Notes: generated from the sequence alone by a model not told the origin. A stretch of DNA of 64,000 bases from an uncultured Pseudomonadota bacterium (GCA_913055645.1 CAJXLC010000006.1:1-64000); one strand, 5' to 3'; shown: positions 37,642 through 58,835, counted from the stretch's first letter. Program-made: numbers and translations.

Positions 37642-38424
37642 TTAACGAAATTTTAGCTCCAGCATGCGTCCACCAGAAATATCGGCGATTTTCTGAAATT
37701 GAACCTTGGTAGAGGTGTCACTGTTACCCAGCGGAAGCGTAAATACAGGTGCTTGAATGGCATGGTAATGTATTTTATCCGTTGATGGCTCATCACCAAT
37801 TAACATATAAGCACTAGGAATATGTGCCACTTTTGTTAAGACATCAAAGGTATGACCAATCGTTTCTTCATTACCAATAAATGGTGCGCTTTGCATCAAA
37901 TAATCAAACATTTCACCCATGGTTCCGCTATATGTACCAAGCCGGTTATCGGCATACCAAGTAATCCCACTTAAATGTTTACCTGAACGAATCGCAATCA
38001 CCCGCAAAACAGGAATTAAAAAGGCTGTTACCCCATGCATGGAGCCCGTAGCATCAATAACCAAATGCAAGTCTTTACCTGGTAAACTTCGTAAACCTTC
38101 AATCATCATTTCAAAGTCTTTGCGACCCTGCCCTTGCCCCAAACTTGCCGCAGTCAAAACTTTATTCATTTGCTCTTGACTATCTGTGCCAACCACATTG
38201 TTCATCTCTTGAAGTAATTCCAAATTTCGGGCTTTGGCAGCAGCCAATTCTTTTTCAAGACCTTCAATTTGAGCTTTGGTTTTCATCGATTCGCCTGAAT
38301 CTTGAGCCTTTGAAACCAATAAAAACATAGAAAATAAAAATATAAATGCCGCCAGCATCAACAGCGCCATATCCGAAAAAACTTCGTAAATAGAGGATAT
38401 ATCTTGCTCACGCCGTGAACGCAT
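37642..38424 (-). CDS. membrane-anchored VWA protein with MotB/ExbD-like N-terminus
   Basis: A 260-residue protein. Residues 13-39 form one membrane helix with Asp18 at its cytoplasmic start (VFSDMALLMLAAF), the position of the proton-carrying Asp in MotB, ExbD and TolR. A coiled coil (about 45-75) is followed by a von Willebrand A domain (about 110-260) with a MIDAS-like DATGSM in place of the usual DxSxS. So a VWA domain takes the place of the periplasmic peptidoglycan-binding domain of MotB. It starts two bases after the ExbB-like gene and has a good GGAGGG. Confidence 0.8.
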   Translation of the reverse strand: MRSRREQDISSIYEVFSDMALLMLAAFIFLFSMFLLVSKAQDSGESMKTKAQIEGLEKELAAAKARNLELLQEMNNVVGTDSQEQMNKVLTAASLGQGQGRKDFEMMIEGLRSLPGKDLHLVIDATGSMHGVTAFLIPVLRVIAIRSGKHLSGITWYADNRLGTYSGTMGEMFDYLMQSAPFIGNEETIGHTFDVLTKVAHIPSAYMLIGDEPSTDKIHYHAIQAPVFTLPLGNSDTSTKVQFQKIADISGGRMLELKFR

Positions 38425-38426
38425 AC

Positions 38427-39476
38427 TTAACCCTCCGACTTATTTTCTTGGTTACTTTTTGAAATAGATACTTGAAAACCCATCGCTGCCAACAACCGCT
38501 GTTTAAAGTTCGCTAGCTTCTTTTGCAGCGTCAGCTCATATCGCAAAATCTTGGCATAATGACGGTGCACAGCAATCGCTTTAAACACCTCATCATCACT
38601 AGATTTCAAGCGCGTTGCATCTTTCAAATCTTGCATTCCTTCTGTAAAATCAGACATCGCAGCTTTGCTTTGTTGCAAGGATTGCGTTAGTGCAGAAAGT
38701 CGTGTTTCCATGCCTTCCACAACCCTATCCAACTGTCTAAAATCTCGCTGCACAGATGGCGTTAAATCAACGGCCGCATATACCATACAACTGCGAGTCA
38801 ATAAATCCTGCAAAGCTTCAATCGAATTATCACCAATATAGGCAAACATCCGCAATAATATACCGCCCAGAATTGATCCCAATAATGTTGTGTAAAATGC
38901 CAAGCCCATGCCTGACATTGCTTCACGTAAAGCAATCAAAACGGACATGCCATCAGAATCAACATTTTCCAACGCACCATTCAAACCAGTTAAGGTAATG
39001 GTTAAACCCAACACTGTACCAATCAGACCCATGGTAATCATCATACTACCAAGCAGGGAAACAAAACGAGCTACACGAATATAACCTGAAAATTCCACCG
39101 TACTAAGCTCAGAGAGCTCAACCTGTCCACCATTTTCATGAATATGCTGTAAAGCGGCAATAAAACGATTGCTGACTTGCCTGCCTTTGGCAACAGCGCC
39201 ATACAAGCCTTTTTTCTCAAGTTGATATTCCAATCTGTAGGCGCAAAACCACTCCCATGTTAAGCCTGCAACATGAACAAAACTAACAAATACACCAAGT
39301 ATAAATGTCCCTAAAATCACCCATGTCACACGCGACGTGTCATAAACAATATAATCCCAAATATTCGCCATATGAAAAAGTTGAATAAATATCGAGATAC
39401 ATACTGCCGACCATATCAGCCATAATGCTAAAGTTTTTAGCCCCCGTTGATCCAGTGCTTTTTGATTCTTAGGCAT
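38427..39476 (-). CDS. MotA/TolQ/ExbB-type proton channel subunit
   Basis: A 349-residue membrane protein with four helices (about 14-36, 48-68, 137-160 and 190-212). The last two carry the family signature GLIGTVLGLTITLTG and GMGLAFYTTLLGSILGG. A long cytoplasmic C-terminal tail (215-349) is predicted helical. With the downstream VWA protein it forms a two-gene 5:2-type ion-driven motor candidate. No gliding, Tol-Pal, Ton or flagellar genes are adjacent. The closest architectural analogue I know is ZorAB of Zorya, but the ZorB OmpA domain is replaced here. Confidence 0.85.
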   Translation of the reverse strand: MPKNQKALDQRGLKTLALWLIWSAVCISIFIQLFHMANIWDYIVYDTSRVTWVILGTFILGVFVSFVHVAGLTWEWFCAYRLEYQLEKKGLYGAVAKGRQVSNRFIAALQHIHENGGQVELSELSTVEFSGYIRVARFVSLLGSMMITMGLIGTVLGLTITLTGLNGALENVDSDGMSVLIALREAMSGMGLAFYTTLLGSILGGILLRMFAYIGDNSIEALQDLLTRSCMVYAAVDLTPSVQRDFRQLDRVVEGMETRLSALTQSLQQSKAAMSDFTEGMQDLKDATRLKSSDDEVFKAIAVHRHYAKILRYELTLQKKLANFKQRLLAAMGFQVSISKSNQENKSEG

Positions 39477-39607: not shown

Positions 39608-40909
39608 TTATTGGCCTTCTGCATAGTAATACACTGTAAAATCATCCTTCCAGCCATCATCTGTTTTGGCATGCACTATAAAACGGTGCATTCCTTGCTT
39701 CAAATTGGGTGATATATGCATAATCACATCTTTTCTACCGGCCGTTTGCCATGCCACAGCTTTCGAGTCTAAGCTATACTCAGAAGCATTCAGCCCTTTA
39801 ATTTTCAAATCCATATTGGCTGCACGGTAACGTTTATTAGAAACATTGATGCGATAGTCATTGACAGCCATACCTTGCAATAACTCTGCCTTATCAACGA
39901 CCAGAACATAAGGTTGATAGTTTGCAATACCCACTGCAAACCACACTGCACCAATCACTGCGCCCACAGTGGCAGCACGGGTGCGTGATAAAAGCGATGT
40001 TAAACCATTGCGCCCTGGTTTAGAGGGACCAAAGGCGAAACTTAGCAAGCCTGGTCCCTGCATTTTCTTGCTCTTACTATGCAAAGTATCGCAAGCAGCC
40101 ACGCAATCACCACAATTAATGCAGCTATCAAACACCACCGTCTGACGCGGATCAATATCTAAAAAGCAACTATCTTCACAATATGTACAGTTCACACAAT
40201 GGTCCGAACGGCTTTCATCATAAGCAATATGCAGGGTTTCTCTTGTTTTAAATGAATGCTGCCAAATACGGTATACACACATATACTTGCATACCAAGTG
40301 TCGCATCGCACTGATATTAATCAGCACAACCAACGTACATACAATATATATCCATAACAGGCTTTTTGCCTCAGCGACAGGTTGCAAAATCATAAATGAC
40401 CAAATCACATCAGGTGAATAAAAGTACAACAGCGGAATAATAGCAATCACCATTGAAACCAATAAAAATGATAATCCCAATACCAGCTTATTCAGCCATT
40501 TATCTTTGCGCACCGCGACCTTCATCTTTTTGCCCGTAATATCCATCATCAACGCACGCCGACCTAGCAGCTTGGAGGTCATCATGTTTGCCCATTCGGA
40601 CAATGTGTTTTGCGGACAAACCCAACCACAAAAAACAGAACCAGCCCACGAATACGTAAAAACAAGCAGCGTCGCCACCATGATCCAAAAACCCATAATA
40701 ATCGACATATCAGCAAACCAAACCTGATAGTCCAACATATGAATAGCCCCTGCCGAGACATCAATACGAAATAGTCCAGACACAGGAATAACAATCAAAA
40801 TAAATATAATGAAATATTGCGAAAATCGTCGCCAATGGCGCACCGACTGCGCTCCGGGTACATGTTCTTGTTGAATAGGAATTTGATTAAGCTTCTGTTG
40901 GGCGTTCAT
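39608..40909 (-). CDS. ccoG: CcoG/RdxA cbb3 oxidase maturation protein, copy 1
   Basis: A 433-residue membrane ferredoxin required to deliver reduced copper to cbb3-type oxidase. It has an N-terminal helix pair, CGWVCPQNTLSEW, two [4Fe-4S] motifs (CVNCTYCEDSCFLDIDP and CINCGDCVAAC), a further membrane helix and the C-terminal Ig-like FixG domain. Apart from the first and last residues it is identical to the product at 57519-58835. It stands alone here, divergent from an HxlR regulator. No ccoNOP genes are in the window. Confidence 0.95.
   Translation of the reverse strand: MNAQQKLNQIPIQQEHVPGAQSVRHWRRFSQYFIIFILIVIPVSGLFRIDVSAGAIHMLDYQVWFADMSIIMGFWIMVATLLVFTYSWAGSVFCGWVCPQNTLSEWANMMTSKLLGRRALMMDITGKKMKVAVRKDKWLNKLVLGLSFLLVSMVIAIIPLLYFYSPDVIWSFMILQPVAEAKSLLWIYIVCTLVVLINISAMRHLVCKYMCVYRIWQHSFKTRETLHIAYDESRSDHCVNCTYCEDSCFLDIDPRQTVVFDSCINCGDCVAACDTLHSKSKKMQGPGLLSFAFGPSKPGRNGLTSLLSRTRAATVGAVIGAVWFAVGIANYQPYVLVVDKAELLQGMAVNDYRINVSNKRYRAANMDLKIKGLNASEYSLDSKAVAWQTAGRKDVIMHISPNLKQGMHRFIVHAKTDDGWKDDFTVYYYAEGQ
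39615..40909 (-). repeat. 1.3-kb direct repeat (ccoG), copy 1
   Basis: This stretch matches 57541-58835 with a constant offset of 17926 and no gaps. By eye only four bases differ, all within the last 70 bp at the gene's 5' end. The flanks share nothing. Both copies have the same orientation. Confidence 0.93.
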
Positions 40910-41058
40910 TGTTTTCTCACATGAATATTATACGTATCTTTCATAATTTTCGGATACTAATATCTATAACCATAGAATATAAGTACGCACTATTTCGTTA
41001 TTTGGTTACAGTTAGTATACTGCGCTCTTAAACTATTTTAGTTATACAAGAGGGATCA

Positions 41059-41464: not shown

Positions 41465-43093
41465 TCAGCCTCTTTCAATCAAGGATGCATTTAAATCTTC
41501 AGGCACCTCATAACCCATAACTTCAAACAATGTTGCTGCCAAGTGCGACAAACCTGGCGTTACAGATAAATCATCTCCTTCTTGTGGTTGTCTAAGCTGA
41601 TATGAGCCATCAAATGCTGGGTCAAATAGAATACATGGCACAGGATTAATCGAATGTTTGGTGCAAGGTTCACTCTCATCCCCTTTAAATACCTGCATCT
41701 CTTCAGCGTTACCATGATCAGCTGTAATCAACGCACAACCACCGACTTTTTCCAAAGCTTCTACTATACGACCTACCGCAGTATCTACAGCTTCAATAGC
41801 TTCAATTGCAGGCGCAATAGCCCCGCAATGCCCCACCATGTCTGCATTGGCAAAATTCATTAATCCAAAGCCATAATCACCTGATTCAATCAACCCAACT
41901 GCCTTATCAGCAATATCGGGCGCTTTCATTTGTGGTGCATCTGCAAAGGAAATATTCTTATCCGATGGAATAAGGATATAATCTTCCATACTATCATCCA
42001 GTGGTTTGCGATAGCCGCCATTAAAGAAAAATGTCACATGTGGAAATTTTTGCGTTTCGGTCAATCGAAACTGTTTGATACCCATTTCTAAAATACGTTT
42101 GCCAAAAGGCGCATCCACTTTGGTTGGCCCCATCAACTGAAGATTTGGAAGGTTACGGTCTTCATCGTATACCATCATACCAGCAAACAATACATCTGGA
42201 CGTTGCCCCCGATCAAAACCATCAAAGTCATCGACTTCAAATGCTTCTGTGATTTCAATCGCACGATCGCCACGGAAATTCACCATGACAACTGCATCAC
42301 CATCTTGCACCGTGCCAATAGGCTTATCATGGCTATCAACAATCACAAAACCTGGTAAATCTTGATCAACGATATCGGCATTTCCAGCGCGAAAAGACTG
42401 CAAGGCTTCTTGCATGCTAGTAAACCGCTTATCACACACACCATGTACCATGGCATCCCAGCCAGGTTTGACCTTGCTCCAATTCTGATCTCTATCCATG
42501 ATAATTTGTTCACGACCACCTGCCGAGGCAAACGCATAATCACAGCCTTGACCATTCAAATCAGCGAATATACCTTCCAATTGAGCAATATAATCCTGTG
42601 CTGTTTGAATACCTACATCGCGACCATCAAGTAAAGCATGCACACGTAATACTTTCACGCCCTCTTTGGCAGCATATTTAGCAAGCGCAATAAAATGATC
42701 AATATGTGAATGAATATTACCATCAGAAAGCAAACCCAATAAATGTAGTACGCCACCTGCTTTTCCCTTAGCGACCACCTCTTCCAACACATCAGACTCA
42801 TAAAAAGAGCCATCAGCAATAGCATTATTAATCCGCGTTGGACCTTGATCAAGAATTTGACCTGCCCCCATGGTTAAATGCCCTACTTCCGAACCACCCA
42901 TATCTTTATTGGATGGTAAACCCACATATTTACCATGCGTCATCAACTGCGTATGCGCATAGTTTTTCCATAGACGATCAAATACAGGCGTATTCGCCAA
43001 TGCCACAGCATCCTCGCTGCCACCCGTACCCATGCCCCAGCCATCCATGACAATTAAAAGTGTTGGTTTTCCTTTATTAAAGCAATGAGCCAT
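41465..43093 (-). CDS. gpmI: 2,3-BPG-independent phosphoglycerate mutase
   Basis: A 542-residue Mn-dependent enzyme interconverting 3- and 2-phosphoglycerate. It starts TLLIVMDGWGMG; the phosphorylated Ser is in NKDMGGSEVGHLTMGAG, and the metal site includes ITADHGNAE near the C-terminus. I chose the ATG at 43093, with GGAGAG upstream, which gives MAHCFNKGKPT; the longer frame lacks a ribosome-binding site. It is important for carrying fixed carbon from RuBisCO into lower glycolysis. Confidence 0.96.
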   Translation of the reverse strand: MAHCFNKGKPTLLIVMDGWGMGTGGSEDAVALANTPVFDRLWKNYAHTQLMTHGKYVGLPSNKDMGGSEVGHLTMGAGQILDQGPTRINNAIADGSFYESDVLEEVVAKGKAGGVLHLLGLLSDGNIHSHIDHFIALAKYAAKEGVKVLRVHALLDGRDVGIQTAQDYIAQLEGIFADLNGQGCDYAFASAGGREQIIMDRDQNWSKVKPGWDAMVHGVCDKRFTSMQEALQSFRAGNADIVDQDLPGFVIVDSHDKPIGTVQDGDAVVMVNFRGDRAIEITEAFEVDDFDGFDRGQRPDVLFAGMMVYDEDRNLPNLQLMGPTKVDAPFGKRILEMGIKQFRLTETQKFPHVTFFFNGGYRKPLDDSMEDYILIPSDKNISFADAPQMKAPDIADKAVGLIESGDYGFGLMNFANADMVGHCGAIAPAIEAIEAVDTAVGRIVEALEKVGGCALITADHGNAEEMQVFKGDESEPCTKHSINPVPCILFDPAFDGSYQLRQPQEGDDLSVTPGLSHLAATLFEVMGYEVPEDLNASLIERG

Positions 43094-43136
43094 GCTGTGC
43101 TCTCCTAAATACATGAAGTAAGTTTTTCTCTAACGA

Positions 43137-43162
43137 AAAAAGCCCAGTCAAATGACTGGGCT
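43137..43162 (-). terminator. terminator of the globin module
   Basis: AGCCCAGTCA and TGACTGGGCT (43141-43150, 43153-43162) form a perfect 10-bp stem followed on the minus strand by UUUUUU. It lies just after the 36-residue microprotein gene and marks the end of that operon before gpmI. Confidence 0.9.
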
Positions 43163-43184
43163 TTTAAACTAAACATGTAAAAAA

Positions 43185-43295
43185 TCAACCGTGATTTGAA
43201 TTATCTGCAATGGTTGCCAATACTATTGGTGTTACTACACCCAATACAAAAAACAAAATAAGCGGATAAATAAAAGCCGTTAACTGTTGTTCCAT
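43185..43295 (-). CDS. 36-residue membrane microprotein sharing the globin anchor
   Basis: An unlisted small gene: GGGAGG lies about 11 nt before an ATG, followed by 36 codons and a stop. The first 20 residues (MEQQLTAFIYPLILFFVLGV) are identical to the N-terminal anchor of the truncated globin at 44491-45000; the rest is TPIVLATIADNSNHG after one Val. It is therefore one membrane helix with a short tail and no globin. It is the last reading frame of the module, directly before a strong terminator. It could be a helper or competitor subunit in the same membrane complex. Confidence 0.82.
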   Translation of the reverse strand: MEQQLTAFIYPLILFFVLGVVTPIVLATIADNSNHG

Positions 43296-43385
43296 AACCA
43301 CAAACCTCCCATAGAAAGTGAATCTTGGGCGGAGATTAGCCCTGATAATCTCACCTTGCAAGCTTTAGGGTTATTTTAGGGTGTA

Positions 43386-44360
43386 TTAAGCCGTCACATC
43401 AAACACAAAAGGATCTGAATAAATATCTGTCATGTTTGCGCCTGACATAAAGCATGTTTGTTTTAAAGCATTCACAATCGCAGGGTCACCACACACATAT
43501 ACGCGCCAACCTTTTAAATCAGGCTTAGATTTTTTAAGTATCTGCTGAAGATCGCCCTGCTCACCATCACGCGGGGCTTCGCCATGCAGTACACATGGAA
43601 TATAGTGTACTTGTTCGTTCTTATCCGCCAAGGCATACAACTCATCCATATAATACAGTCCTTGCACTGCCAAACTAGCATGAAACACATGTATTTCTCC
43701 ACGATGCCCACGTGCCAAAGCATCACGTAAAATACCATACAAAGGCGCAAGTCCAGTACCGACACCAACCAACAACAATGGCTGATCCAAATCCCTATCG
43801 GTATAAAAACAGTCTCCTGCAGGTCCCATAAACGAAAGCGCATCACCAAGCTTGGCATCATCATGGAAATAACCACTTACACGGCCATCAGGAACACGCT
43901 TAATATGTAATTCTAAAAAATCTTCACGGGGCAAGCTTGCCAGTGAATAACTACGTGTTACATCTGTTTCAGGATGCATTACATTGATGAATTGCCCAGC
44001 AATATAATCCAAAGGCTGTTCAGTTTTCAAACGAATACGTATAACCGATTCGTTTAATAGCGTTTTTTCAACAATGGTTGAAGATACTACCTGTTCTGCA
44101 ACATCGGCAACAGATAGTTCCATATCTTCTTCTGGCTTACAGATACATGCTAAAAAATAGTTTTGATCGACTAGCGTATCTTTCAAACCTTGCTGAGACT
44201 CAACTGGCGGTGTGCCTTTCACTGCTTTGGTGATACATGTTTGGCACACACCACTCTGACAAGATGAGGGAATCAACACGCCGTGTCGAGTCAAACTCTC
44301 AAGCACCGTTTCACCTTCTTCACAGTGGTATTCTTTTCCTTCAAAGGTAATAACTGGCAC
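43386..44360 (-). CDS. 2Fe-2S/FAD/NAD(P)H electron-transfer reductase
   Basis: A 324-residue reductase of the phenol hydroxylase / methane monooxygenase reductase type. The N-terminal plant-type ferredoxin has CQSGVCQTC and a later CIC Cys. The FAD domain has RSYSLAS, and the NAD(P)H domain has GVGTGLAPLYGILRDAL and YVCGDPAIV. I chose the GTG at 44360, which has GAGG at 8 nt; an in-frame TTG two codons earlier is too close to that site. Following two globin genes, it is a good candidate to re-reduce their haem iron. Confidence 0.9.
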   Translation of the reverse strand: MPVITFEGKEYHCEEGETVLESLTRHGVLIPSSCQSGVCQTCITKAVKGTPPVESQQGLKDTLVDQNYFLACICKPEEDMELSVADVAEQVVSSTIVEKTLLNESVIRIRLKTEQPLDYIAGQFINVMHPETDVTRSYSLASLPREDFLELHIKRVPDGRVSGYFHDDAKLGDALSFMGPAGDCFYTDRDLDQPLLLVGVGTGLAPLYGILRDALARGHRGEIHVFHASLAVQGLYYMDELYALADKNEQVHYIPCVLHGEAPRDGEQGDLQQILKKSKPDLKGWRVYVCGDPAIVNALKQTCFMSGANMTDIYSDPFVFDVTA

Positions 44361-44416
44361 GTTCAATTCCTCACTACATAGCGACTAATAAAAAAATATC
44401 ATATCTAATTACTTTT

Positions 44417-44483
44417 CAAAAAGAACGACCCAGTCTTCAGTATCCCTAGAGTGGGATGGGGGAAGAAACTTGAAGACTGAGTC
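44417..44483 (-). terminator. attenuator-like hairpin between globin and reductase
   Basis: A 13-bp outer stem (44427-44439 with 44471-44483) encloses an inner ATCCC/GGGAT stem. The single mismatch of the outer stem is a G-U pair only in the minus-strand transcript. A UUCUUUUU stretch follows. It may partially terminate or stabilise the message between the two genes. Confidence 0.6.
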
Positions 44484-44490
44484 GAAACGA

Positions 44491-45000
44491 TTAGCGGTTT
44501 AACACATCATCACGAACGCTATCTGCAATCGCAATAATTTCCGCCACTTTTTCTTCACCCACACCCAATTCAGCCAGAGTTGAACGCAAGTGTGCCAACA
44601 CATGTTCAAAATGAGAATCATTCAAACCCATTTTCTCAACCAAATGTTTGTGCCCTTCACGCATATCCATACCTGTATAGTTATTGGGTCCGCCAAATAC
44701 CATGGTTAAGAAGGCTTTTTGTTTTTGAGCCTGTCTGACCATATCTGTATCTTCAAAAAACACCTTAATATAGGCATCGGACAAGACACGACGGTAAAAA
44801 ATATCTACCGCTGCATCAATAGCTGCTGCACCACCCAACTGATCATACAAAGACTGTTCAGCAGGTTGAGCAGATTGAGTATCTACATCATTTCTCGAAG
44901 TCGCTTTATCTGCGGCACCCGCTAACAGTATTGGTACAATCACGCCAAGCACAAAAAATAAAATTAAAGGGTAAATAAACGCTGTTAGTTGCTGTTCCAT
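44491..45000 (-). CDS. membrane-anchored group I truncated hemoglobin
   Basis: A 169-residue protein made of one N-terminal membrane helix (about 4-27), a linker (28-49) and a complete group I truncated globin (50-169). Globin residues include the B10 Tyr in IFYRRVLSD, the GGPNNYTG loop, and the proximal His117 in MREGHKHL. The globin half is closely similar to the soluble globin encoded ten bases upstream, so the pair arose by tandem duplication followed by gain of the anchor. Such globins convert NO and O2 to nitrate; anchoring would place this next to membrane oxidases. AAGGG precedes the ATG. Confidence 0.9.
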   Translation of the reverse strand: MEQQLTAFIYPLILFFVLGVIVPILLAGAADKATSRNDVDTQSAQPAEQSLYDQLGGAAAIDAAVDIFYRRVLSDAYIKVFFEDTDMVRQAQKQKAFLTMVFGGPNNYTGMDMREGHKHLVEKMGLNDSHFEHVLAHLRSTLAELGVGEEKVAEIIAIADSVRDDVLNR

Positions 45001-45010
45001 AACTTAGCCC

Positions 45011-45373
45011 TTATCTGTCTAGCACATCAGCACGCACACTGTCTGCGATATTGATGACTTCTTGAATTTTATCTGCGCCAACACCCAATTCTGCCAAGGT
45101 TGAACGAAGGTGTGCCAAGATATGTTCAAAATGCGAATCATTTAGACCCTGTTTTACCAAATGTTTATGACCTTCACGCATATCCAAACCTGTATAGCTA
45201 TTCGGACCACCAAACACCATAGTCAGAAATGCTTTCTGCTTCGCTGCTTGTTTTTCCATATCTACACCTTCAAAAAAGCGAATAACATACGCATCACTTA
45301 AAACGCGACGATAAAAAATATCTACCGCTGCATTCACCGCTGCTTCTCCACCTAACTCTTCATATAAACTCAT
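45011..45373 (-). CDS. group I truncated hemoglobin, soluble
   Basis: A 120-residue group I truncated globin (HbN type). It begins MSLYEELGGEAAV and has the B10 Tyr in IFYRRVLSDAY, the GGPNSYTG turn and the proximal His in MREGHKHL. I chose the ATG at 45373, with GGGAG at 6 nt; the longer frame adds 16 unrelated residues. It is the first gene of the module, divergent from the NsrR-like regulator. Confidence 0.92.
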   Translation of the reverse strand: MSLYEELGGEAAVNAAVDIFYRRVLSDAYVIRFFEGVDMEKQAAKQKAFLTMVFGGPNSYTGLDMREGHKHLVKQGLNDSHFEHILAHLRSTLAELGVGADKIQEVINIADSVRADVLDR

Positions 45374-45417
45374 AAGACACTCCCACGAAACATTCATTAA
45401 ATTTTGATCAAATAACC

Positions 45418-45460
45418 ACATAAGATATATTTGATATGCGCTAATATAAATACCTTATGT
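45418..45460. promoter_or_regulatory. candidate NsrR operator
   Basis: ACATAAG (45418-45424) and CTTATGT (45454-45460) form outer inverted arms. Inside, AAGATATATTT matches 9 of 11 bases of the AAGATGCATTT half-site reported for NsrR, with a poorer second half. It lies between the divergent globin and regulator genes. Confidence 0.45.
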
Positions 45461-45525
45461 CAAACATGTCAAATAAATATATCTTTTTTATTGATAACCA
45501 TTCTCAAGCAGACTATTATACTGCC

Positions 45526-45993
45526 ATGCAACTAACTCTCTACACTGACTATTCACTGCGTGTTTTACTATATTTGGGGCAACATCCCAATGAACGCATC
45601 ACCATCACGCAAATTTCAGACTACTTCAACATTTCGCGCAATCACCTTGTGAAAGTCGTTCACAACCTCGGTAAACTAGAGCTTATTCATACTATCCGAG
45701 GTAAAAATGGCGGCATGCTCTTGGCTCAAGAGCCAAAAGACATCAATCTTGCCACAGTGGTTCAACATATTGAACCGCATATGAACCTATTGGAATGCTT
45801 TGATAATGAAACCAACACCTGCCCAATTACCATGAGCTGTGACCTGAAACATATACTATTCAAAGCCAAAAGAAGTTTTATTAATGTATTAAAAGAACAC
45901 ACTTTAGCTGATTTATTATCAAAAGATAATGCCGAAGCAACCATGCAATATATTCCTATTACGAAGATTCAAAGCGTACATACTAACAAATAA
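45526..45993 (+). CDS. nsrR: Rrf2-family NO-responsive regulator (NsrR-like)
   Basis: A 155-residue Rrf2 regulator. The N-terminal winged helix is in MQLTLYTDYSLRVLLYLG and SRNHLVKVVHNLG. The three iron-sulfur ligands are in ECFDNETNTCPITMSC (Cys spacing x7 and x5), the pattern of NsrR [4Fe-4S] sensors. I chose the ATG at 45526, where the family begins; the longer frame from 45457 covers the operator. NO would release it from DNA and induce the globin genes. Confidence 0.88.
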   Translation: MQLTLYTDYSLRVLLYLGQHPNERITITQISDYFNISRNHLVKVVHNLGKLELIHTIRGKNGGMLLAQEPKDINLATVVQHIEPHMNLLECFDNETNTCPITMSCDLKHILFKAKRSFINVLKEHTLADLLSKDNAEATMQYIPITKIQSVHTNK

Positions 45994-46133: not shown

Positions 46134-47546
46134 ATGTTGTCTAAAATTATTGATTCCATTCAACCTCGCCATATCGGTTTGCTTGCCATGTGCGGCTTGG
46201 CATTTCTATATATGGCACTGTTTCGTTACGACTCTTACGGCATTGAAGAAGGTGCAGCTCGCGCCTTGTTGATTAACTGGTCTATTATCGACAAAGTCGC
46301 CAATGCCACAGCATTATTTGGCATACCTGATTTGCGCTCCCTTATGTTTATCTTTTTAGATATTCATTGGGCTGGAAGCTTACCCGCCGCCAAGATGTTC
46401 ACTTTATTTATGGTATTTGCTACAGCACTCATGCTCTATCGCTGGGGTGAAAACAACGATAGTGCCGAAACATCCACCATTGCCACTGCCTTATTACTTA
46501 TTGCGCCCATCACCGTCATGCAAGTGGACTCTATTTCTTCTGGCGTATTTTTACTCTTCTGTTTTATCTGCGCATTTTGGCTAGAAAAAATGTACGATGA
46601 TAACAGACACACACTACCAGGCTCAATATTTATGCTTATCCTCATCTCTGCATTTGCCGTGAGTCTACACCCTATGGGGCTGGCTCTACCCATCGCATTA
46701 CTGCTGCTATGGCTACCCAAAAAAGATAACTTGGTTGATTCTAAAAAACGTCGTAACCTTATGATTGGCATTGGTAGTAGTAGCATGGTTTTGCTTATTA
46801 TGCGTTGGGGTTGGTCAGGGCTTGAAAGCCAAGGTGGTCATTTGGCAAGTCTTGGTGCCATTCTCTCTGGATCACCCATTTTACAAGCCACACCACCCAT
46901 TGGTTACGGCCTAATTGTTGCTAGTTTATTGAGCTTTACCATTGCTGTATATATTTACCGTCGCTATTTTGAGCTTTTTAGTCTCACATTGGTCATTGCC
47001 TGCCTCATTGGCTTGCTTCGCCCTGACACATCTTGGGCATTGATGGCACTCACATGCATACTATTCCTCGGACTCCCTATGCTCACCGCCTTACACCGCA
47101 AAACAGGCATTCAAAATCTTATTGGGCAACGAGGCTTGATACTCATACTCATTGTCGTGTGTACCAGCATATTTACCTCAGCCGATAAACATTACCGCAT
47201 GATTAGCCAGCTAAAACTCAAATCAGATGTTGATTACTTACTCACATCTGCCGCAGCCATCGCCAATGAAAACAAAGATGAATTTATTATTGCCAGCCAG
47301 TGGCCTGCTCGCACCATGCTTGCCACCAAACGTGATGTCTTGCCTCTGCCGCCGCAACGCATTCTCAAAGATGCAACTATTTTTAGTGAAAAAACAGCTG
47401 GTATTACACACTTCATGTTTGATCCAAACGCCACAAAGAACAAGGCCTTGGCACGCATTTCAGCCAGTCTTGGTCATCAAATGGAAGCTATCGAATTGCT
47501 ACCTGCAGGTGTGATTATTCAGGTTAATCGAGGTAAACCGAACTAA
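46134..47546 (+). CDS. polytopic membrane protein, GT-C-like
   Basis: A 470-residue inner-membrane protein with about ten to eleven helices and a C-terminal soluble tail (about 360-470). The short loop after the first helix contains YGIEEGAARALL, and the overall shape recalls GT-C glycosyltransferases or PMT-type enzymes, but I see no clear catalytic acidic pair. Function unknown. It is monocistronic, followed by a MITE-like element. Confidence 0.6.
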   Translation: MLSKIIDSIQPRHIGLLAMCGLAFLYMALFRYDSYGIEEGAARALLINWSIIDKVANATALFGIPDLRSLMFIFLDIHWAGSLPAAKMFTLFMVFATALMLYRWGENNDSAETSTIATALLLIAPITVMQVDSISSGVFLLFCFICAFWLEKMYDDNRHTLPGSIFMLILISAFAVSLHPMGLALPIALLLLWLPKKDNLVDSKKRRNLMIGIGSSSMVLLIMRWGWSGLESQGGHLASLGAILSGSPILQATPPIGYGLIVASLLSFTIAVYIYRRYFELFSLTLVIACLIGLLRPDTSWALMALTCILFLGLPMLTALHRKTGIQNLIGQRGLILILIVVCTSIFTSADKHYRMISQLKLKSDVDYLLTSAAAIANENKDEFIIASQWPARTMLATKRDVLPLPPQRILKDATIFSEKTAGITHFMFDPNATKNKALARISASLGHQMEAIELLPAGVIIQVNRGKPN

Positions 47547-47563
47547 GTAAACCTGTTGCTATG

Positions 47564-47708
47564 GTAACTATTCAGCAGTAATAAAAATAGAGATCGCTGT
47601 TCAGATTGCCATATATTTTCTAATAAAAGGCAAAAAAGTGCAGCTTACGACTGTAAGTGAGCAGTTTTTCATGCAGGGCTTAGAAAAAAAGAAAATCTGA
47701 ATAGTTAC
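47564..47708. repeat. MITE-like element, copy 2
   Basis: A 145-bp element bounded by GTAACTATTCAG and CTGAATAGTTAC. The interior contains AAGGCAAAAAAGTGCAGC, TTACGACTGTAAG and TGAGCAG, clearly homologous to the element at 11025-11146. It lies between two converging genes. Confidence 0.75.
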
Positions 47709-47711
47709 TTG

Positions 47712-47957
47712 CTATGATTCATCTTTTCTGTGCCAAAGATGAAAAAATAATGACACCGCAATGCCAAAAGCTCCACCAAATGTAAAAATCCCGCCCATCA
47801 AGGCTTCTGCTAAGAGTAATTTCGTGATTCCCGTATGAAGTTGTGGAAAAATATAAGCAAGCACGGCTATACCAACACACATGGCAATGGTATAACGTTT
47901 CATATGACGCATCCATATAGCATCATTCACTTCTGTTTGTACTTCCTCTGACATCAT
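47712..47957 (-). CDS. small two-helix membrane protein
   Basis: An 81-residue protein with two membrane helices (about 25-40 and 50-75) and a charged N-terminus. No family is recognised. Its ATG at 47957 overlaps the stop of the upstream membrane protein gene, so the two are translated together. The N-terminal length and second-helix GG repeats resemble ATP synthase protein I-type or oxidase-accessory proteins, but that is weak. Confidence 0.6.
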   Translation of the reverse strand: MMSEEVQTEVNDAIWMRHMKRYTIAMCVGIAVLAYIFPQLHTGITKLLLAEALMGGIFTFGGAFGIAVSLFFHLWHRKDES

Positions 47958-48385
47958 CAACCTGCCCCTTTTACAACAGTTGTAACGGCCGGAACAATCA
48001 ATAGCGCTCCTGTTGCTAATACCAACAAGCGCGCAACAACAATACCTAGGAACTGTTTACGATGTTCCTCTCGGGTACGCTGATGGTCTTCCGAACCTAC
48101 TGGATTTTGTAACATAGCACGCCCTGCCATAATCTGTAAAACATACAAAGCATACAATACCATGACAAAAATCAAATGGCACCAAATCAGAAAAGTGAAA
48201 ATATCACCATCTACAATAAGCCGCTTCCACCAATCGTGGGTTAAATACAAATAAACGGGGAACGAGACATCAAAAAGCATTAAAAAAGACATTGCCGCAA
48301 TATGAAAACGCCGTTGCTTACGCCAATACCATGCCGCCGCTAACAGGACGAAACTCATCAAAACCAATAAAACACTTGTTGTCAT
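47957..48385 (-). CDS. four-helix membrane protein, DUF420-like
   Basis: A 142-residue protein with four predicted helices (about 3-20, 28-48, 62-85 and 112-135). Histidines at helix edges (RFHIAAMSF, LTHDWW, IWCHLIFVM) could bind haem or copper. The arrangement resembles DUF420 proteins found beside terminal oxidases, though I am not certain. It is divergent from the haem-copper-oxidase-like gene at 48462. Confidence 0.55.
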   Translation of the reverse strand: MTTSVLLVLMSFVLLAAAWYWRKQRRFHIAAMSFLMLFDVSFPVYLYLTHDWWKRLIVDGDIFTFLIWCHLIFVMVLYALYVLQIMAGRAMLQNPVGSEDHQRTREEHRKQFLGIVVARLLVLATGALLIVPAVTTVVKGAG

Positions 48386-48461
48386 GCCCCAACCCTAATC
48401 GAACAACAAGCTATCCGTTATCTTTATTTGCTCCTTAACTTAAAAACGTTACGCTTCGCTC

Positions 48462-49007
48462 ATGTCTGAATATACCTCCAAACCAATTTCTAATCAGCCT
48501 CCAGCAAATGAAAACCGCTATCTAGGCAAGTTTCTTATCACATCCGTACTTTCCTTCTTTGTCGGCACAGTACACGGTGTACTACAAGTCATCCCAGGTA
48601 TTCGTGCTTGGCTGGACTCCATTGGCAGCCCTTATGGTGGACCTGGTCACATGATTGACCCTTTGGCACATGCCCACATCAACTTGGTTGGCGGCGTAAC
48701 CATTCTCGGTATGGCAATCACCTATTATTTGATTCCTAAAATTACGGGCAAACCTCTCCATTCTCAACGTATGGCGGAACATTCCTTTTGGTGGACTGCC
48801 ATTGGTGTCGCTATATTTTATATATCCTTAATGATTTTTGGTATTTGGGAAGGTCAACTTTGGCTCACCCATCCAGAAGAAATTCCTGTCATTCATCGCT
48901 TTTATGGTCCTATTATTTCTATTGCAGCTACAGGTCTTGCGATTGGCTTTTGGATCTATCTTGCGAATGTTTTGTTATCATTAAAAGGCATTTACAAAAA
49001 ATCATAA
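48462..49007 (+). CDS. four-helix haem-copper oxidase subunit I-like protein
   Basis: A 181-residue membrane protein with four helices (about 21-43, 70-92, 108-130 and 147-172). The segment AHAHINLVGGVTILGMAITYYLIPKITG is described here only by its ends: it resembles helices of CcoN/NorB-type oxidases. Histidines 38, 70, 72, 107 and 145 lie at helix ends and could hold haem. At one third of the normal length it cannot be a full oxidase. Proteins like this are often annotated as cbb3 subunit I. It may be a haem-based sensor or electron carrier. Confidence 0.65.
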   Translation: MSEYTSKPISNQPPANENRYLGKFLITSVLSFFVGTVHGVLQVIPGIRAWLDSIGSPYGGPGHMIDPLAHAHINLVGGVTILGMAITYYLIPKITGKPLHSQRMAEHSFWWTAIGVAIFYISLMIFGIWEGQLWLTHPEEIPVIHRFYGPIISIAATGLAIGFWIYLANVLLSLKGIYKKS

Positions 49008-49010
49008 GCT

Positions 49011-49580
49011 ATGACTGACAATCAGATAGAAGCTCAGACAAACACTCAACATCATGAACGCTTAGAGTGCGGCTGCCCTTCAAGTTATCCCGATTGGAAA
49101 CATGGTGATATTGATTTGGGCGGGCAGCTTGTTCATAAGCTAAAGATACCCATGTTTATGCATATGCCCATTGGTTACGAAGCCTATCTTCTCAAACAAA
49201 AGGATGATATTGAACGCCTTGAATTGCATGAAAAATGGCCAGGCTTTAACTTAACCCGTACAGGTGCATTGCATGGTCAAATACTCTGCCCACTGACTGA
49301 GGAAAAATCTCCTGCACGCAATTTAATGACACTTGCTCATCCATTTCAGTTACGCGTTCAACTTTTTCATGGTGATGTTACAGATATGCGTATGGCTATT
49401 CGTAAAATGCAGTCTGAAATTCTAGATGATGGGCTGATGCCAAAAGAATTATATCTAAGTTACCTCACTTGTCCTGTATGCGAAGAAGAGCGTGGTGGTA
49501 AGCGTGTGATGTTGATGCGCCGTTGGGTAAAGAGTAAAAAACTCGAAGCCCGCTTGAAAAAATCAGCCTCCAAAAAATAA
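49011..49580 (+). CDS. conserved hypothetical soluble protein with CxC and CPVC
   Basis: A 189-residue soluble protein starting three bases after the preceding gene. It has ECGCPSSYPDW near the N-terminus, an aromatic middle (KIPMFMHMPIGYEAYLL) and CPVCEEERGGKRVMLMRRW near the C-terminus; the end is lysine-rich. No family is recognised. The spaced Cys pairs could bind a metal. It is part of a three-gene unit with the oxidase-like membrane protein. Confidence 0.6.
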   Translation: MTDNQIEAQTNTQHHERLECGCPSSYPDWKHGDIDLGGQLVHKLKIPMFMHMPIGYEAYLLKQKDDIERLELHEKWPGFNLTRTGALHGQILCPLTEEKSPARNLMTLAHPFQLRVQLFHGDVTDMRMAIRKMQSEILDDGLMPKELYLSYLTCPVCEEERGGKRVMLMRRWVKSKKLEARLKKSASKK

Positions 49581-49904: not shown

Positions 49905-50195
49905 GAGCATAAACCTACCTATATTCTGTGTTCCGCTTGTATCTTACATTGACAGATTTCGGTGGGTCTCTCCTGGTTCGTCCGAAGCACAGGGAGGTCA
50001 ATAATGATGCCACAACAGCTACAGCAGGCATGGTTATGCGGCATTGTATTGCTATCAAAGACTGCATTGCCATTAATCTCAAAGCTGTTAAGCAGACCGG
50101 ATTTTTTCAAACTTACCCAATGCCAGATAAAGGGTATTTAGTGAAAGAGATAGATGAGTGCTTTTCAGTGTTTGGTACACCTTGCGAGCAGTGAT
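49905..50195 (-). pseudogene. decayed copy of the Fur-family regulator gene
   Basis: This stretch is closely similar in DNA sequence to 54430-54720, the 3' two thirds of the intact Fur-family gene on the same strand. It retains the codons for SGLLN.FEINGNAVFDSNTMPHNHACCSCCG. An extra T in a T-run (TTTTTT versus TTTTT) shifts the frame, further changes follow, and the N-terminal DNA-binding part is absent. It is a non-functional remnant. Confidence 0.85.
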
Positions 50196-50252
50196 ATGGA
50201 TTAGTTTACGCGCCCATTCATGGGAGCGATGATATTTTTTTACGAAGGTATA

Positions 50253-50467: not shown

Positions 50468-51994
50468 ATGAGTGATTTGTTAGTCGAGCTTTCACGGTTT
50501 CAGTTTGCATTTACTGCCCTGATTCACTTTATTTTTGTGCCGTTGACAATCGGCATGAGTTTTTTACTGGTGATTATGGAAACGACCTATGTAATTACAG
50601 GCAATAAAATTTACCGTGAAATGACCCAATTCTGGGGCAAGTTGTTCGGTATTAATTTCGCAATGGGGGTCGCGACAGGCTTAACTATGGAATTCCAGTT
50701 TGGTACCAACTGGGCATACTACTCACATTATGTTGGTGATATTTTTGGCGTACCCCTAGCCATTGAAGGCATGATGGCATTCTTTCTTGAGTCTACATTT
50801 GTCGGTCTGTTTTTTGTCGGTTGGAAACGACTTAGTAAATATCAGCATCTGTTGGTTACCTTTCTAGTGGCAATTGGTTCAAATATGTCGGCTCTATGGA
50901 TTCTTATTGCCAATGGCTGGATGCAAAATCCGGTCGGGGCAGCATTCAATCCGGATACCATGCGTATGGAGCTAAGTAGCTTTTCCGATCTTATTTTTAA
51001 TCCGGTGGCACAAGCCAAGTTTGTCCATACTGTAAGTGCCGGTTATACCGTTGGTAGCGTGTTTGTATTGGCCATTAGCGCCTGGTATCTGTTACGTGGC
51101 AAACATATCGAATTTGCCAAACGTTCGTTTGCCATTGCAGCAGGTTTCGGGCTGGCGGCAATTTCATCCGCCATTATCCTAGGCGATGAGTCTGGCTATA
51201 CCGTGGGTGATGTGCAAAAAGCCAAGATGGCTGCTATTGAAGCTGAGTGGGAAACAGCCCCGGCTCCAGCCAGTTTTACACTGTTCGGTTTACCTAATCA
51301 GGAAAAAATGGAAACCGATTATGCCATTCGTATTCCATGGTTACTCGGCTTGATTGCCACCCGTTCGGTGGATGAGCAGGTGAAAGGCCTCAAGGATATT
51401 ATAGCTGATAATGAAGTGCGCATTCAGCGCGGCATCAAGGCATGGAGCGCCTTGCAACAGCTACGCAATAATAAACAGGATAAAGCGGCGTCCCAACAAC
51501 TTAAGCGATATCAGGACGATCTTGGCTATGGGCTGCTTCTGCATAGTTATACGAAGCATATCGACCAGGCTACACCGGAGCAGATTCACCAGGCAGCAGT
51601 TCATTCAGTGCCCCGAGTTGCCCCGTTATTCTTTACATTCCGGCTGATGGTTATCTGCGGTATGGTGTTGCTTGTCTTGTTTATTGCTGCGTCATGGGGT
51701 GTTTACCGTAACAACTTCATGCGCAATCGCTTGTTGCTACGCGCCGCTATATTCGCATTACCTTTACCATGGATTGCTGCGGAACTCGGTTGGTTTGTAG
51801 CCGAATATGGTCGGCAGCCATGGACAATCAGCGGTATTCTGCCGACATCACTATCCACATCTAGCCTCTCAGCAGCTTCAGTGGGTACCAGTCTAGGTGC
51901 TTTTGTGGTGTTCTATGCCGCGCTGACATGTGTGGAAATGTATCTGATGATCAAATATGCACGTAAGGGTCCTGATGCCCTGCATGCCCATTGA
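50468..51994 (+). CDS. cydA: cytochrome bd ubiquinol oxidase subunit I
   Basis: A 508-residue membrane subunit carrying haems b558, b595 and d, which oxidises quinol and reduces O2 to water. It begins with LSRFQFAFTALIHFIFVPLTIG, contains MEFQFGTNWAYYSHYVGD and GWMQNPVGA, and has a long Q-loop around KMETDYAIRIPWLLGLIATRS, so it is the long-loop (E. coli-like) class. Helices and His ligands appear complete. It is part of cydP-A-B-X. Confidence 0.97.
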   Translation: MSDLLVELSRFQFAFTALIHFIFVPLTIGMSFLLVIMETTYVITGNKIYREMTQFWGKLFGINFAMGVATGLTMEFQFGTNWAYYSHYVGDIFGVPLAIEGMMAFFLESTFVGLFFVGWKRLSKYQHLLVTFLVAIGSNMSALWILIANGWMQNPVGAAFNPDTMRMELSSFSDLIFNPVAQAKFVHTVSAGYTVGSVFVLAISAWYLLRGKHIEFAKRSFAIAAGFGLAAISSAIILGDESGYTVGDVQKAKMAAIEAEWETAPAPASFTLFGLPNQEKMETDYAIRIPWLLGLIATRSVDEQVKGLKDIIADNEVRIQRGIKAWSALQQLRNNKQDKAASQQLKRYQDDLGYGLLLHSYTKHIDQATPEQIHQAAVHSVPRVAPLFFTFRLMVICGMVLLVLFIAASWGVYRNNFMRNRLLLRAAIFALPLPWIAAELGWFVAEYGRQPWTISGILPTSLSTSSLSAASVGTSLGAFVVFYAALTCVEMYLMIKYARKGPDALHAH

Positions 51995-54369: not shown

Positions 54370-54825
54370 TTAAATACTGCCGACTCCTGATTTGTTCATT
54401 TTCCCGGCGCGATCTTCGTCCATGCAATTTGGGCACAAACCCACCCATATTCTATGTTCGGTCTGTATCTGCCATTGATTGAGCAGGGAGGGAGCTTGCT
54501 GCTCCATCTGATGCACAGGGAGGTCAATAATCACGCCACAACAGCTACAGCAGGCATGGTTATGCGGCATTGTATTGCTATCGAAGACTGCATTGCCATT
54601 AATCTCAAAGCGGTTAAGCAGACCGGATTTTTCAAACTGACCCAATGTCAGATAAACGGTATTTAGTGAAAGAGCTGGGTGATCCTCTTTCAGTGTTTGG
54701 TATACCTTGCGAGCTGTTACATGGGCCGGTTTGGAGAGTACCAGTTCCGCCACAGTTAATCGCTGAGGCGTGAGCCGAAAACCATGGCCTCGTAATAAAG
54801 ATGGAATATCAATAGCTGTTGACAT
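54370..54825 (-). CDS. Fur-family (PerR-like) transcriptional regulator
   Basis: A 151-residue Fur-family regulator. The DNA-binding helix is in RGHGFRLTPQRLTVAELVL and SLNTVYLTLGQFEKSG; the metal-binding half has NHACCSCCGVIIDL and a C-terminal CPNC that may bind structural zinc. Divergence from a di-haem peroxidase suggests a PerR-like role. A 57-bp tandem duplication repeats the start region in frame, so translation could also begin at 54882 and add 19 residues. I prefer 54825, where the family begins. Confidence 0.85.
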   Translation of the reverse strand: MSTAIDIPSLLRGHGFRLTPQRLTVAELVLSKPAHVTARKVYQTLKEDHPALSLNTVYLTLGQFEKSGLLNRFEINGNAVFDSNTMPHNHACCSCCGVIIDLPVHQMEQQAPSLLNQWQIQTEHRIWVGLCPNCMDEDRAGKMNKSGVGSI

Positions 54826-54927
54826 GAGCGCATACTTGCATATTTTTCTTATATAGTAAATATTACTAATAGTTGTTGACATGAGCGCATACTTGAATAT
54901 TGTTCGTATATAGTAAATATTACTAAG
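54814..54927. repeat. 57-bp tandem duplication of the regulator/peroxidase promoter
   Basis: 54814-54870 and 54871-54927 are tandem copies with about five differences. Each copy contains TTGACA, the regulator start codon (minus strand), and the palindrome TAGTAAATATTACTA. So the putative operator and the start codon are both duplicated in the space between two divergent genes. Confidence 0.88.
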
Positions 54928-57518: not shown

Positions 57519-58835
57519 TTAGCCTCCTACCTTCGCCGTACCTTCTGCATAGTAATACACTGTAAAATCATCCTTCCAGCCATCATCTGTTTTGGCATGC
57601 ACTATAAAACGGTGCATTCCTTGCTTCAAATTGGGTGATATATGCATAATCACATCTTTTCTACCGGCCGTTTGCCATGCCACAGCTTTCGAGTCTAAGC
57701 TATACTCAGAAGCATTCAGCCCTTTAATTTTCAAATCCATATTGGCTGCACGGTAACGTTTATTAGAAACATTGATGCGATAGTCATTGACAGCCATACC
57801 TTGCAATAACTCTGCCTTATCAACGACCAGAACATAAGGTTGATAGTTTGCAATACCCACTGCAAACCACACTGCACCAATCACTGCGCCCACAGTGGCA
57901 GCACGGGTGCGTGATAAAAGCGATGTTAAACCATTGCGCCCTGGTTTAGAGGGACCAAAGGCGAAACTTAGCAAGCCTGGTCCCTGCATTTTCTTGCTCT
58001 TACTATGCAAAGTATCGCAAGCAGCCACGCAATCACCACAATTAATGCAGCTATCAAACACCACCGTCTGACGCGGATCAATATCTAAAAAGCAACTATC
58101 TTCACAATATGTACAGTTCACACAATGGTCCGAACGGCTTTCATCATAAGCAATATGCAGGGTTTCTCTTGTTTTAAATGAATGCTGCCAAATACGGTAT
58201 ACACACATATACTTGCATACCAAGTGTCGCATCGCACTGATATTAATCAGCACAACCAACGTACATACAATATATATCCATAACAGGCTTTTTGCCTCAG
58301 CGACAGGTTGCAAAATCATAAATGACCAAATCACATCAGGTGAATAAAAGTACAACAGCGGAATAATAGCAATCACCATTGAAACCAATAAAAATGATAA
58401 TCCCAATACCAGCTTATTCAGCCATTTATCTTTGCGCACCGCGACCTTCATCTTTTTGCCCGTAATATCCATCATCAACGCACGCCGACCTAGCAGCTTG
58501 GAGGTCATCATGTTTGCCCATTCGGACAATGTGTTTTGCGGACAAACCCAACCACAAAAAACAGAACCAGCCCACGAATACGTAAAAACAAGCAGCGTCG
58601 CCACCATGATCCAAAAACCCATAATAATCGACATATCAGCAAACCAAACCTGATAGTCCAACATATGAATAGCCCCTGCCGAGACATCAATACGAAATAG
58701 TCCAGACACAGGAATAACAATCAAAATAAATATAATGAAATATTGCGAAAATCGTCGCCAATGGCGCACCGACTGCGCACCGGGTACATGTTCTTGTTGA
58801 ATAGGAATTTGATTAAGCTTCTGTTGAGCACTCAT
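57519..58835 (-). CDS. ccoG: CcoG/RdxA cbb3 oxidase maturation protein, copy 2
   Basis: A 438-residue protein identical to the product at 39608-40909 except that it begins MSAQ instead of MNAQ and ends GTAKVGG in place of GQ. The [4Fe-4S] motifs and helices are as described for copy 1. Here the gene is embedded in an operon: it overlaps the SpeE-like gene by ATGA and is followed by small cytochrome genes. This copy may be the one tied to an electron-transfer complex. Confidence 0.95.
   Translation of the reverse strand: MSAQQKLNQIPIQQEHVPGAQSVRHWRRFSQYFIIFILIVIPVSGLFRIDVSAGAIHMLDYQVWFADMSIIMGFWIMVATLLVFTYSWAGSVFCGWVCPQNTLSEWANMMTSKLLGRRALMMDITGKKMKVAVRKDKWLNKLVLGLSFLLVSMVIAIIPLLYFYSPDVIWSFMILQPVAEAKSLLWIYIVCTLVVLINISAMRHLVCKYMCVYRIWQHSFKTRETLHIAYDESRSDHCVNCTYCEDSCFLDIDPRQTVVFDSCINCGDCVAACDTLHSKSKKMQGPGLLSFAFGPSKPGRNGLTSLLSRTRAATVGAVIGAVWFAVGIANYQPYVLVVDKAELLQGMAVNDYRINVSNKRYRAANMDLKIKGLNASEYSLDSKAVAWQTAGRKDVIMHISPNLKQGMHRFIVHAKTDDGWKDDFTVYYYAEGTAKVGG
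57541..58835 (-). repeat. 1.3-kb direct repeat (ccoG), copy 2
   Basis: The second copy of the repeat at 39615-40909, in the same orientation and with no gap. Recombination between the copies would delete or duplicate the 17.9 kb between them, including the cyd block. Confidence 0.93.

Follow-up and report, generated by a model that had tools for sequence, protein, structure and literature searches.

A membrane-anchored truncated haemoglobin and a free copy of its helix near a candidate membrane motor in Zetaproteobacteria

Introduction

The soluble cassette of an NsrR-like regulator, a truncated haemoglobin and a reductase is already known. In Legionella, the group I truncated haemoglobin GlbN is encoded with a ferredoxin reductase in an operon under NsrR control (work cited in PMC3820574), and cassettes of the same three parts without anchors were also found in Hahella, Lentisphaeraceae, Hydrogenedentota and others. 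Here we describe a locus of this kind in which a second haemoglobin is fused to a membrane helix, and in which nearly the same helix recurs as a free microprotein of 36 residues. The locus lies at positions 43185-45993 of a 64,000-nucleotide stretch of DNA from an uncultured Pseudomonadota bacterium (GCA_913055645.1, CAJXLC010000006.1:1-64000), analyzed whole and called the window below, and its relatives were compared across 78 Zetaproteobacteria genomes. It shares with the Legionella GlbN operon a regulator of NsrR-like type, the group I globin and a separate FNR-type reductase gene. The Legionella-type and similar cassettes, however, are soluble, and lack a second, anchored globin, a protein made of the anchor alone, and motor genes.

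Membrane-associated globins have also been described, among them M. tuberculosis HbO, Vitreoscilla haemoglobin and acylated globin X (PMC3820574). These likewise place a globin at the membrane, but are held there by membrane affinity or acylation and not by a transmembrane helix that appears duplicated from a free helix protein. Chlamydomonas THB1 (PDB 4xdi) and cyanobacterial GlbN share the group I fold with the globin described here, and THB1 also shares its lysine at position E10; both, however, are soluble, single-domain proteins without a membrane helix.

The window additionally contains two adjoining genes, here called c3 and c4, that resemble parts of a membrane motor. A recent study predicted proton motors composed of a TolQ-like protein and a TPH-vWA protein, with vWA genes mostly in heterologous pairs, and described single helices (TonB, TolA) docking laterally on such motors (PMC12204202, 2025). 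As in those systems, the TolQ-like channel gene c3 adjoins the gene of a vWA protein, c4, whose transmembrane helix has a conserved Asp, and no TolR/ExbD gene was seen beside the pair either; the likeness is one of architecture, and c3/c4 differ in having a single vWA gene instead of a heterologous pair, and an extra 35-aa helix protein. In TonB-ExbBD and TolA-TolQR the ExbB/TolQ pentamer is the docking site of a functional domain attached through one N-terminal helix, and docking of this type is proposed here. In contrast to TonB and TolA, the helices of this locus have no SHLS motif and the opposite predicted topology, and the domain carried is a cytoplasmic heme protein and not a periplasmic force transducer.

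The locus and its microprotein

The genes and sites on which the comparison rests are as follows.

45526-45993, plus strand: NsrR-like regulator of the Rrf2 family (Pfam Rrf2, 3.7e-35), with the cysteine pattern ECFDNETNTCPITMSC (C-x7-C-x5-C)
45374-45525, no strand: divergent control region, in which two NsrR-box-like sites occur as inverted AAGATATATTT boxes
45011-45373, minus strand: soluble group I truncated haemoglobin (Pfam Bac_globin, 9.1e-20), start ATG of MSLYEELGG; the listed open reading frame runs from 45421
44491-45000, minus strand: membrane-anchored group I truncated haemoglobin (Pfam Bac_globin, 6.8e-19), helix at residues ~5-27, globin domain at residues 50-169
43386 to 44360 (or 44366), minus strand: 2Fe-2S / FAD / NAD(P)H reductase (Pfam Fer2, FAD_binding_6, NAD_binding_1)
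43185-43295, minus strand: single-helix microprotein, 36 aa, in a separate frame, paralogue of the globin anchor
~43136-43166, minus strand: intrinsic terminator closing the globin-reductase-microprotein operon, a strong hairpin with T-run (-19.5 kcal/mol, from sequence and fold)
41465-43090, minus strand: gpmI (NCBIfam TIGR01307), in relatives often between the microprotein and c3
38427-39476, minus strand: c3, ExbB/TolQ/MotA-like channel protein with a cytoplasmic helical tail (Pfam MotA_ExbB, 27 bits; cut-off 22.9)
37642-38424, minus strand: c4, MotB/ExbD-like transmembrane helix, coiled coil and C-terminal vWA domain (from alignment and Foldseek)

Every element that a first-pass annotation had reported was present: an NsrR-like gene opposite a soluble globin, an anchored globin, a reductase and a 36-residue single-helix protein. 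Its boundaries covered the globin operon but left out the most telling neighbours, at 37642-39476. The strong terminator follows the microprotein gene, which ends at 43185, making this the last gene of the globin operon in the window.

The reported identity of the first 20 residues of the microprotein and the globin anchor was confirmed, the two sequences being 76% identical over 34 residues and 79% over 33, and the 20 shared codons were found to contain 13 synonymous and no non-synonymous differences. The match is therefore held by selection at the protein level and is neither chance nor a recent copy. The free microprotein was identified in 40 of the 78 Zetaproteobacteria genomes, spanning three families; a search with the microprotein alone as query found the shared helix in 41 genomes, and a profile search added a few. 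The usual pattern is two helix copies per genome, one on a globin frame of 160-190 aa and one on a short frame. A G-rich Shine-Dalgarno-like site, mostly GGGAGG, lies just before the ATG of all 40 microproteins (the leader in the window is ATGGGAGGTTTGTGGTT), and pairwise ratios of non-synonymous to synonymous substitution rates (dN/dS) were mostly 0.05-0.3. The conservation check named by the first-pass annotation thus did not refute its claim: the microprotein is conserved and under purifying selection, and is almost certainly a real gene. Searches for the anchor/microprotein family outside Zetaproteobacteria gave only chance-level matches in the sampled Pseudomonadota, and no convincing third user of the helix was found at E<=0.5 in any Zetaproteobacteria genome searched. 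Assignment of the microprotein as a known oxidase subunit was rejected: no Pfam family scored above cut-off, and its distribution follows c3/c4.

Co-occurrence with c3 and c4

The microprotein and c3 were both present in 40 genomes and both absent from 34; the microprotein was never found alone, and c3 alone in four (Fisher p=5e-18, a value inflated by phylogenetic relatedness). The four c3-only genomes arise because their contigs end where the microprotein would lie: one ends inside gpmI (G014), one after the anchored globin (G065), and in two c3 itself is cut (G058, G017). The distribution of c4 across genomes was the same as that of c3. The genes for the microprotein and c3 share a contig, no more than 4 kb apart, in 32/40 genomes, and are within 250 bp in 18/40. 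The gene order in relatives is microprotein, then c3 and c4, directly or after gpmI, the position of which is probably incidental, and in several genomes this cluster stands apart from the globin operon.

Globins with this type of anchor occur in 33 genomes, but at least four others (G010, G016, G064, G077) have c3, c4, the microprotein and an intact soluble-globin/reductase operon without an anchored globin. In two genomes lacking c3/c4 (G044, G050) the cassette is limited to the soluble globin, without an anchor, and the reductase. Two that lack c3, c4 and the microprotein (G059, locus L128; G061, locus L130) have an anchored globin with an unrelated helix, MGFLEIILPIILLVVILVGF, of which no free copy was found anywhere in either genome. 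Persistence of the microprotein without the anchored globin, together with loss or switching of the anchor where c3/c4 are lacking, indicates that the helix belongs with c3/c4 and that the globin anchor is a client copy; we hold with fair confidence that the microprotein belongs with c3/c4. The first-pass view of the microprotein as simply a controller of globin assembly is not supported in that form, since it is present without an anchored globin and tracks c3/c4 perfectly.

Presence of the locus was patchy within one genus (g11), which would argue against simple inheritance. Five genomes of this genus (G052, G056, G058, G063, G064) resemble g1 genomes, and not other g11 members, in their MEQQLTAF helix type, their globins and their c3, which suggests, as far as sequence likeness goes, that the whole locus was transferred as a unit.

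The c3/c4 gene pair

The top Foldseek matches of the c3 model were ExbB, TolQ, MotA, PomA and ZorA (E 2e-3, probability 1.00, with low template modelling scores), and by domain and nearest folds c3 belongs to the MotA/TolQ/ExbB family. The c4 helix has an invariant Asp (YEVFSDMALLML) in the alignment, with weak ZorB1/MotB_plug matches, and the c4 model matched vWA folds (E 1.3e-4), its N-terminal half being modelled at low confidence. There is one vWA gene per c3/c4 cluster and no separate TolR/ExbD gene was seen in the loci compared. In the sample of the phylum, no homologue beyond Zetaproteobacteria matched the c4 profile.

Two other assignments of the pair were considered but not adopted. 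Zorya defence systems combine ZorA with a ZorB bearing an OmpA-like domain, plus ZorC/D; similarity of c3/c4 to ZorA/ZorB is weak, a vWA domain takes the place of the OmpA-like domain, and no ZorC/D neighbours were noted. A link to twisted-stalk formation, which the presence of c3/c4 had seemed to follow, was not supported, and the stalk genes listed in excerpts of PMC8250860 include no ExbB/TolQ, vWA or globin genes.

Six loci (L145, L146, L147, L149, L155, L156) contain second c3 copies, accompanied by c4 if the contig extends far enough, or have c3/c4 at a distance from the microprotein. In these, c3 follows a CcoG/FixG-like gene (in some with a membrane protein of 145-150 aa as well) and is next to a LysR-type regulator, a context that hints at a link of the motor to oxidase or copper biogenesis. 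In one further locus (L157, G072), c3/c4 have a gene for copper nitrite reductase (TIGR02376) and one for a NorB-like protein as direct neighbours.

The anchored globin and its regulation

By its domain, closest structures and key residues the anchored globin is a group I truncated haemoglobin. Its closest solved relatives are cyanobacterial GlbN (1e-33) and Chlamydomonas THB1 (7e-32), followed by HbN (2e-18). REGHKHL aligns with REAHKEL of GlbN and FYRRV with FYERV, so that proximal His F8 and Tyr B10 are present, and the segment QAQKQK places a Lys at distal E10 as in THB1. None of 73 sequences has K or R before the helix, and positive charge follows it, which by the positive-inside rule predicts an N-out/C-in topology with the globin in the cytoplasm. 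The same charge pattern is contrary to a cleaved signal peptide, and the membrane anchor of the first-pass annotation held up on this point. Two loci (L071 in G019, L086 in G060) encode an anchored protein with two tandem globin domains after one helix.

The soluble truncated haemoglobin has relatives in 44/78 Zetaproteobacteria genomes. The reductase, for which a GTG start at 44360 suits the homologues better than the TTG at 44366, adjoins the globin in all intact loci but one (L071) and is the presumed electron donor of the globin. The regulator gene has an MQLT start as in homologues, within a frame that opens at 45457, and is divergent from the globins in most relatives. Its best NCBIfam equivalog is NsrR, at 128 bits and thus below the equivalog cut-off of 182 bits, and the three cysteines are present in NsrR spacing. 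NsrR-box-like sites (at most 2 mismatches to AAGATGCATTT) were found in 18/36 orthologous nsrR-globin intergenic regions, against a chance expectation of ~0.08 per 150 bp.

From the cassette and the type of regulator, the globin probably carries out nitric oxide (NO) dioxygenation, and NO detoxification is plausibly its most economical role. The first-pass annotation had placed a membrane NO dioxygenase beside oxidases. The dioxygenase part of this is credible, given Lys E10, the reductase, the NsrR cysteines and the boxes, but "beside oxidases" applies only loosely, as the cydA-like gene begins at 50468, 7 kb off.

Proposed mechanism and alternatives

We propose that the microprotein may be the small helix subunit of a proton-driven membrane motor of the ExbB/TolQ-vWA type formed by c3 and c4, and that its helix was duplicated onto a second globin, which would make the anchor a paralogue of a motor subunit. 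The presumably NsrR-controlled cassette of soluble haemoglobin and reductase would thereby have acquired another globin, one that goes into the motor or next to it and docks at the microprotein's site or an equivalent one. There the cytoplasmic globin would be re-reduced by the NADH-dependent reductase and would remove NO (or buffer O2). At sites without a loaded globin the free microprotein would sit instead, and would thereby set the share of globin-bearing sites. For the overall reading, a motor helix subunit whose duplicated helix may tether an NsrR-controlled, THB1-like NO dioxygenase to the motor, we see an even chance, and we are equally divided on whether the globin docks on c3/c4. More tentatively, the motor could have a helix site that accepts the 36-residue helix either in its free form or in the copy that bears a heme globin, which would place NO (or O2) chemistry on a rotary membrane motor or couple the two.

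The two helices co-evolve. Identity between microprotein and anchor was 83% within a genome vs 56% between genomes, and 66% (standard deviation 1.5%, p<5e-5) when partners were shuffled among genomes sharing a helix type. Synonymous sites were saturated in 14 genomes (codon identity at shared residues 0.35 observed, 0.38 expected from codon usage), yet the excess persisted there (0.81 vs 0.66), so that recent gene conversion is not a sufficient cause. As the source of the likeness, recent conversion was unsupported in most genomes. Codon identity between the copies was raised in a few genomes (G009, G066, G042), with some conversion in G009 and G066 as a possible cause. Conversion long ago, with silent sites saturated since, is a conceivable alternative source of the likeness. 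Among the 16 genomes with all parts, anchor divergence correlated more strongly with that of the microprotein (r=0.86) than with that of the globin domain to which the anchor is fused (r=0.69).

Several observations weigh against a globin docked on the motor. The strongest partial correlation computed was that between microprotein and anchor (0.66, p=5e-4, given c3, c4, the reductase and both globin domains), while partial correlations with c3, other locus proteins being controlled, were 0.17 for the microprotein and 0.04 for the anchor; taken alone, these sequence comparisons would favour microprotein-anchor contact or a shared constraint over a microprotein-c3 signal. Co-inheritance at a common genomic locus could by itself create the co-occurrence, and several genomes have second c3/c4 copies without a second microprotein. 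In the window the terminator and three genes (gpmI, HxlR and a duplicated CcoG-like one) stand between the microprotein and c3/c4, which are therefore not on one transcript there. The docking motif of TonB and TolA (Ser-x-His-x-Leu-x-Ser) is absent from microprotein and anchor sequences, and the predicted N-out topology is the reverse of theirs. Finally, contact of the microprotein or the globin with c3/c4 is itself inferred.

One alternative, in line with the first-pass view, is pairing between the two helices: the microprotein would serve the anchored globin in assembly or in setting stoichiometry, and the motor genes would be mere neighbours. This would account for the partial correlation of 0.66, for the microprotein lying with the globin/reductase operon in 23/40 genomes, and for its place as the last gene before the terminator in the window. 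However, the microprotein is kept in the four genomes with intact operons and no anchored globin, never occurs without c3, and remains with c3/c4 in genomes whose globin operon lies apart. We therefore regard helix pairing as unlikely.

The helix could also be a generic membrane anchor without a specific partner, duplicated from the microprotein onto a neighbouring globin gene and touched by occasional gene conversion. The frequent proximity of the genes and the raised codon identity in G009, G066 and G042 are consistent with this, but it leaves unexplained the 14 genomes with background synonymous sites and high protein identity, the co-variation of copies on separate contigs (G001, G002, G003, G006), and the tracking of c3/c4 presence by the anchor. 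We consider it quite improbable.

A third possibility is that the globin senses heme-binding gases, reporting O2 or NO to the motor instead of detoxifying NO. Iron oxidisers live in steep O2 gradients, hexacoordination of the THB1 type can switch ligands, and a heme protein apparently associated with motor genes would suit a sensor. The dedicated reductase in nearly every intact locus and the NsrR-type control point instead to turnover. The copper nitrite reductase and NorB-like gene by c3/c4 in L157 also weigh against a sensor role, which seems very doubtful. That the microprotein, short and anchor-like as it is, could be an untranslated relic of the globin anchor is extremely improbable in view of the Shine-Dalgarno-like sites before all 40 ATGs, the low dN/dS, the span of three families and the purely synonymous changes in the shared 20 codons.

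Neighbouring genes

Between the reductase and the microprotein, four loci (L083, L084, L087, L088) have two genes that cluster with multicopper oxidases, one of which has a cytochrome-c-like CASCH/CATCH segment, and the gene of an unknown 260-aa protein. In L088 every gene from the soluble globin to c4, the microprotein and c3 included, has the same direction. The CcoG/FixG-like gene occurs twice in the window (39615-40910 and 57541-58836, 99.7% DNA identity). Its first copy, between gpmI/HxlR and c3, resembles a recent duplication. A fragment at 49907-50199 is 85% identical to a Fur-like gene (54370-54882; matching part 54433-54724) and is apparently a broken second copy. Beside nsrR, at 46134-49580, are genes for a 470-aa membrane protein, a DUF420-like protein, a truncated COX1-like protein of 181 aa and a Bact_hydrolase-family protein, a cluster kept next to the globin operon in several relatives.

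Implications

The observation is stronger than the first-pass annotation had stated and its interpretation half right: a membrane NO dioxygenase is plausible, and the microprotein plausibly belongs first to a motor-like complex. In the literature searched we found no bacterial truncated globin that has a transmembrane anchor and is accompanied by a paralogue of the anchor alone. The motor link would provide a candidate third subunit, and a heme-protein client, for a little-studied class of predicted ExbB/TolQ-vWA motors. Helices at different loci that co-evolve while silent sites are saturated offer a clean natural case for studying how a single helix recognizes a membrane complex. In the iron-oxidising marine Zetaproteobacteria, where the globin may be parked on the motor, the locus would give an entry to the role of such motors in iron oxidisers and to the siting of NO removal beside membrane machinery.

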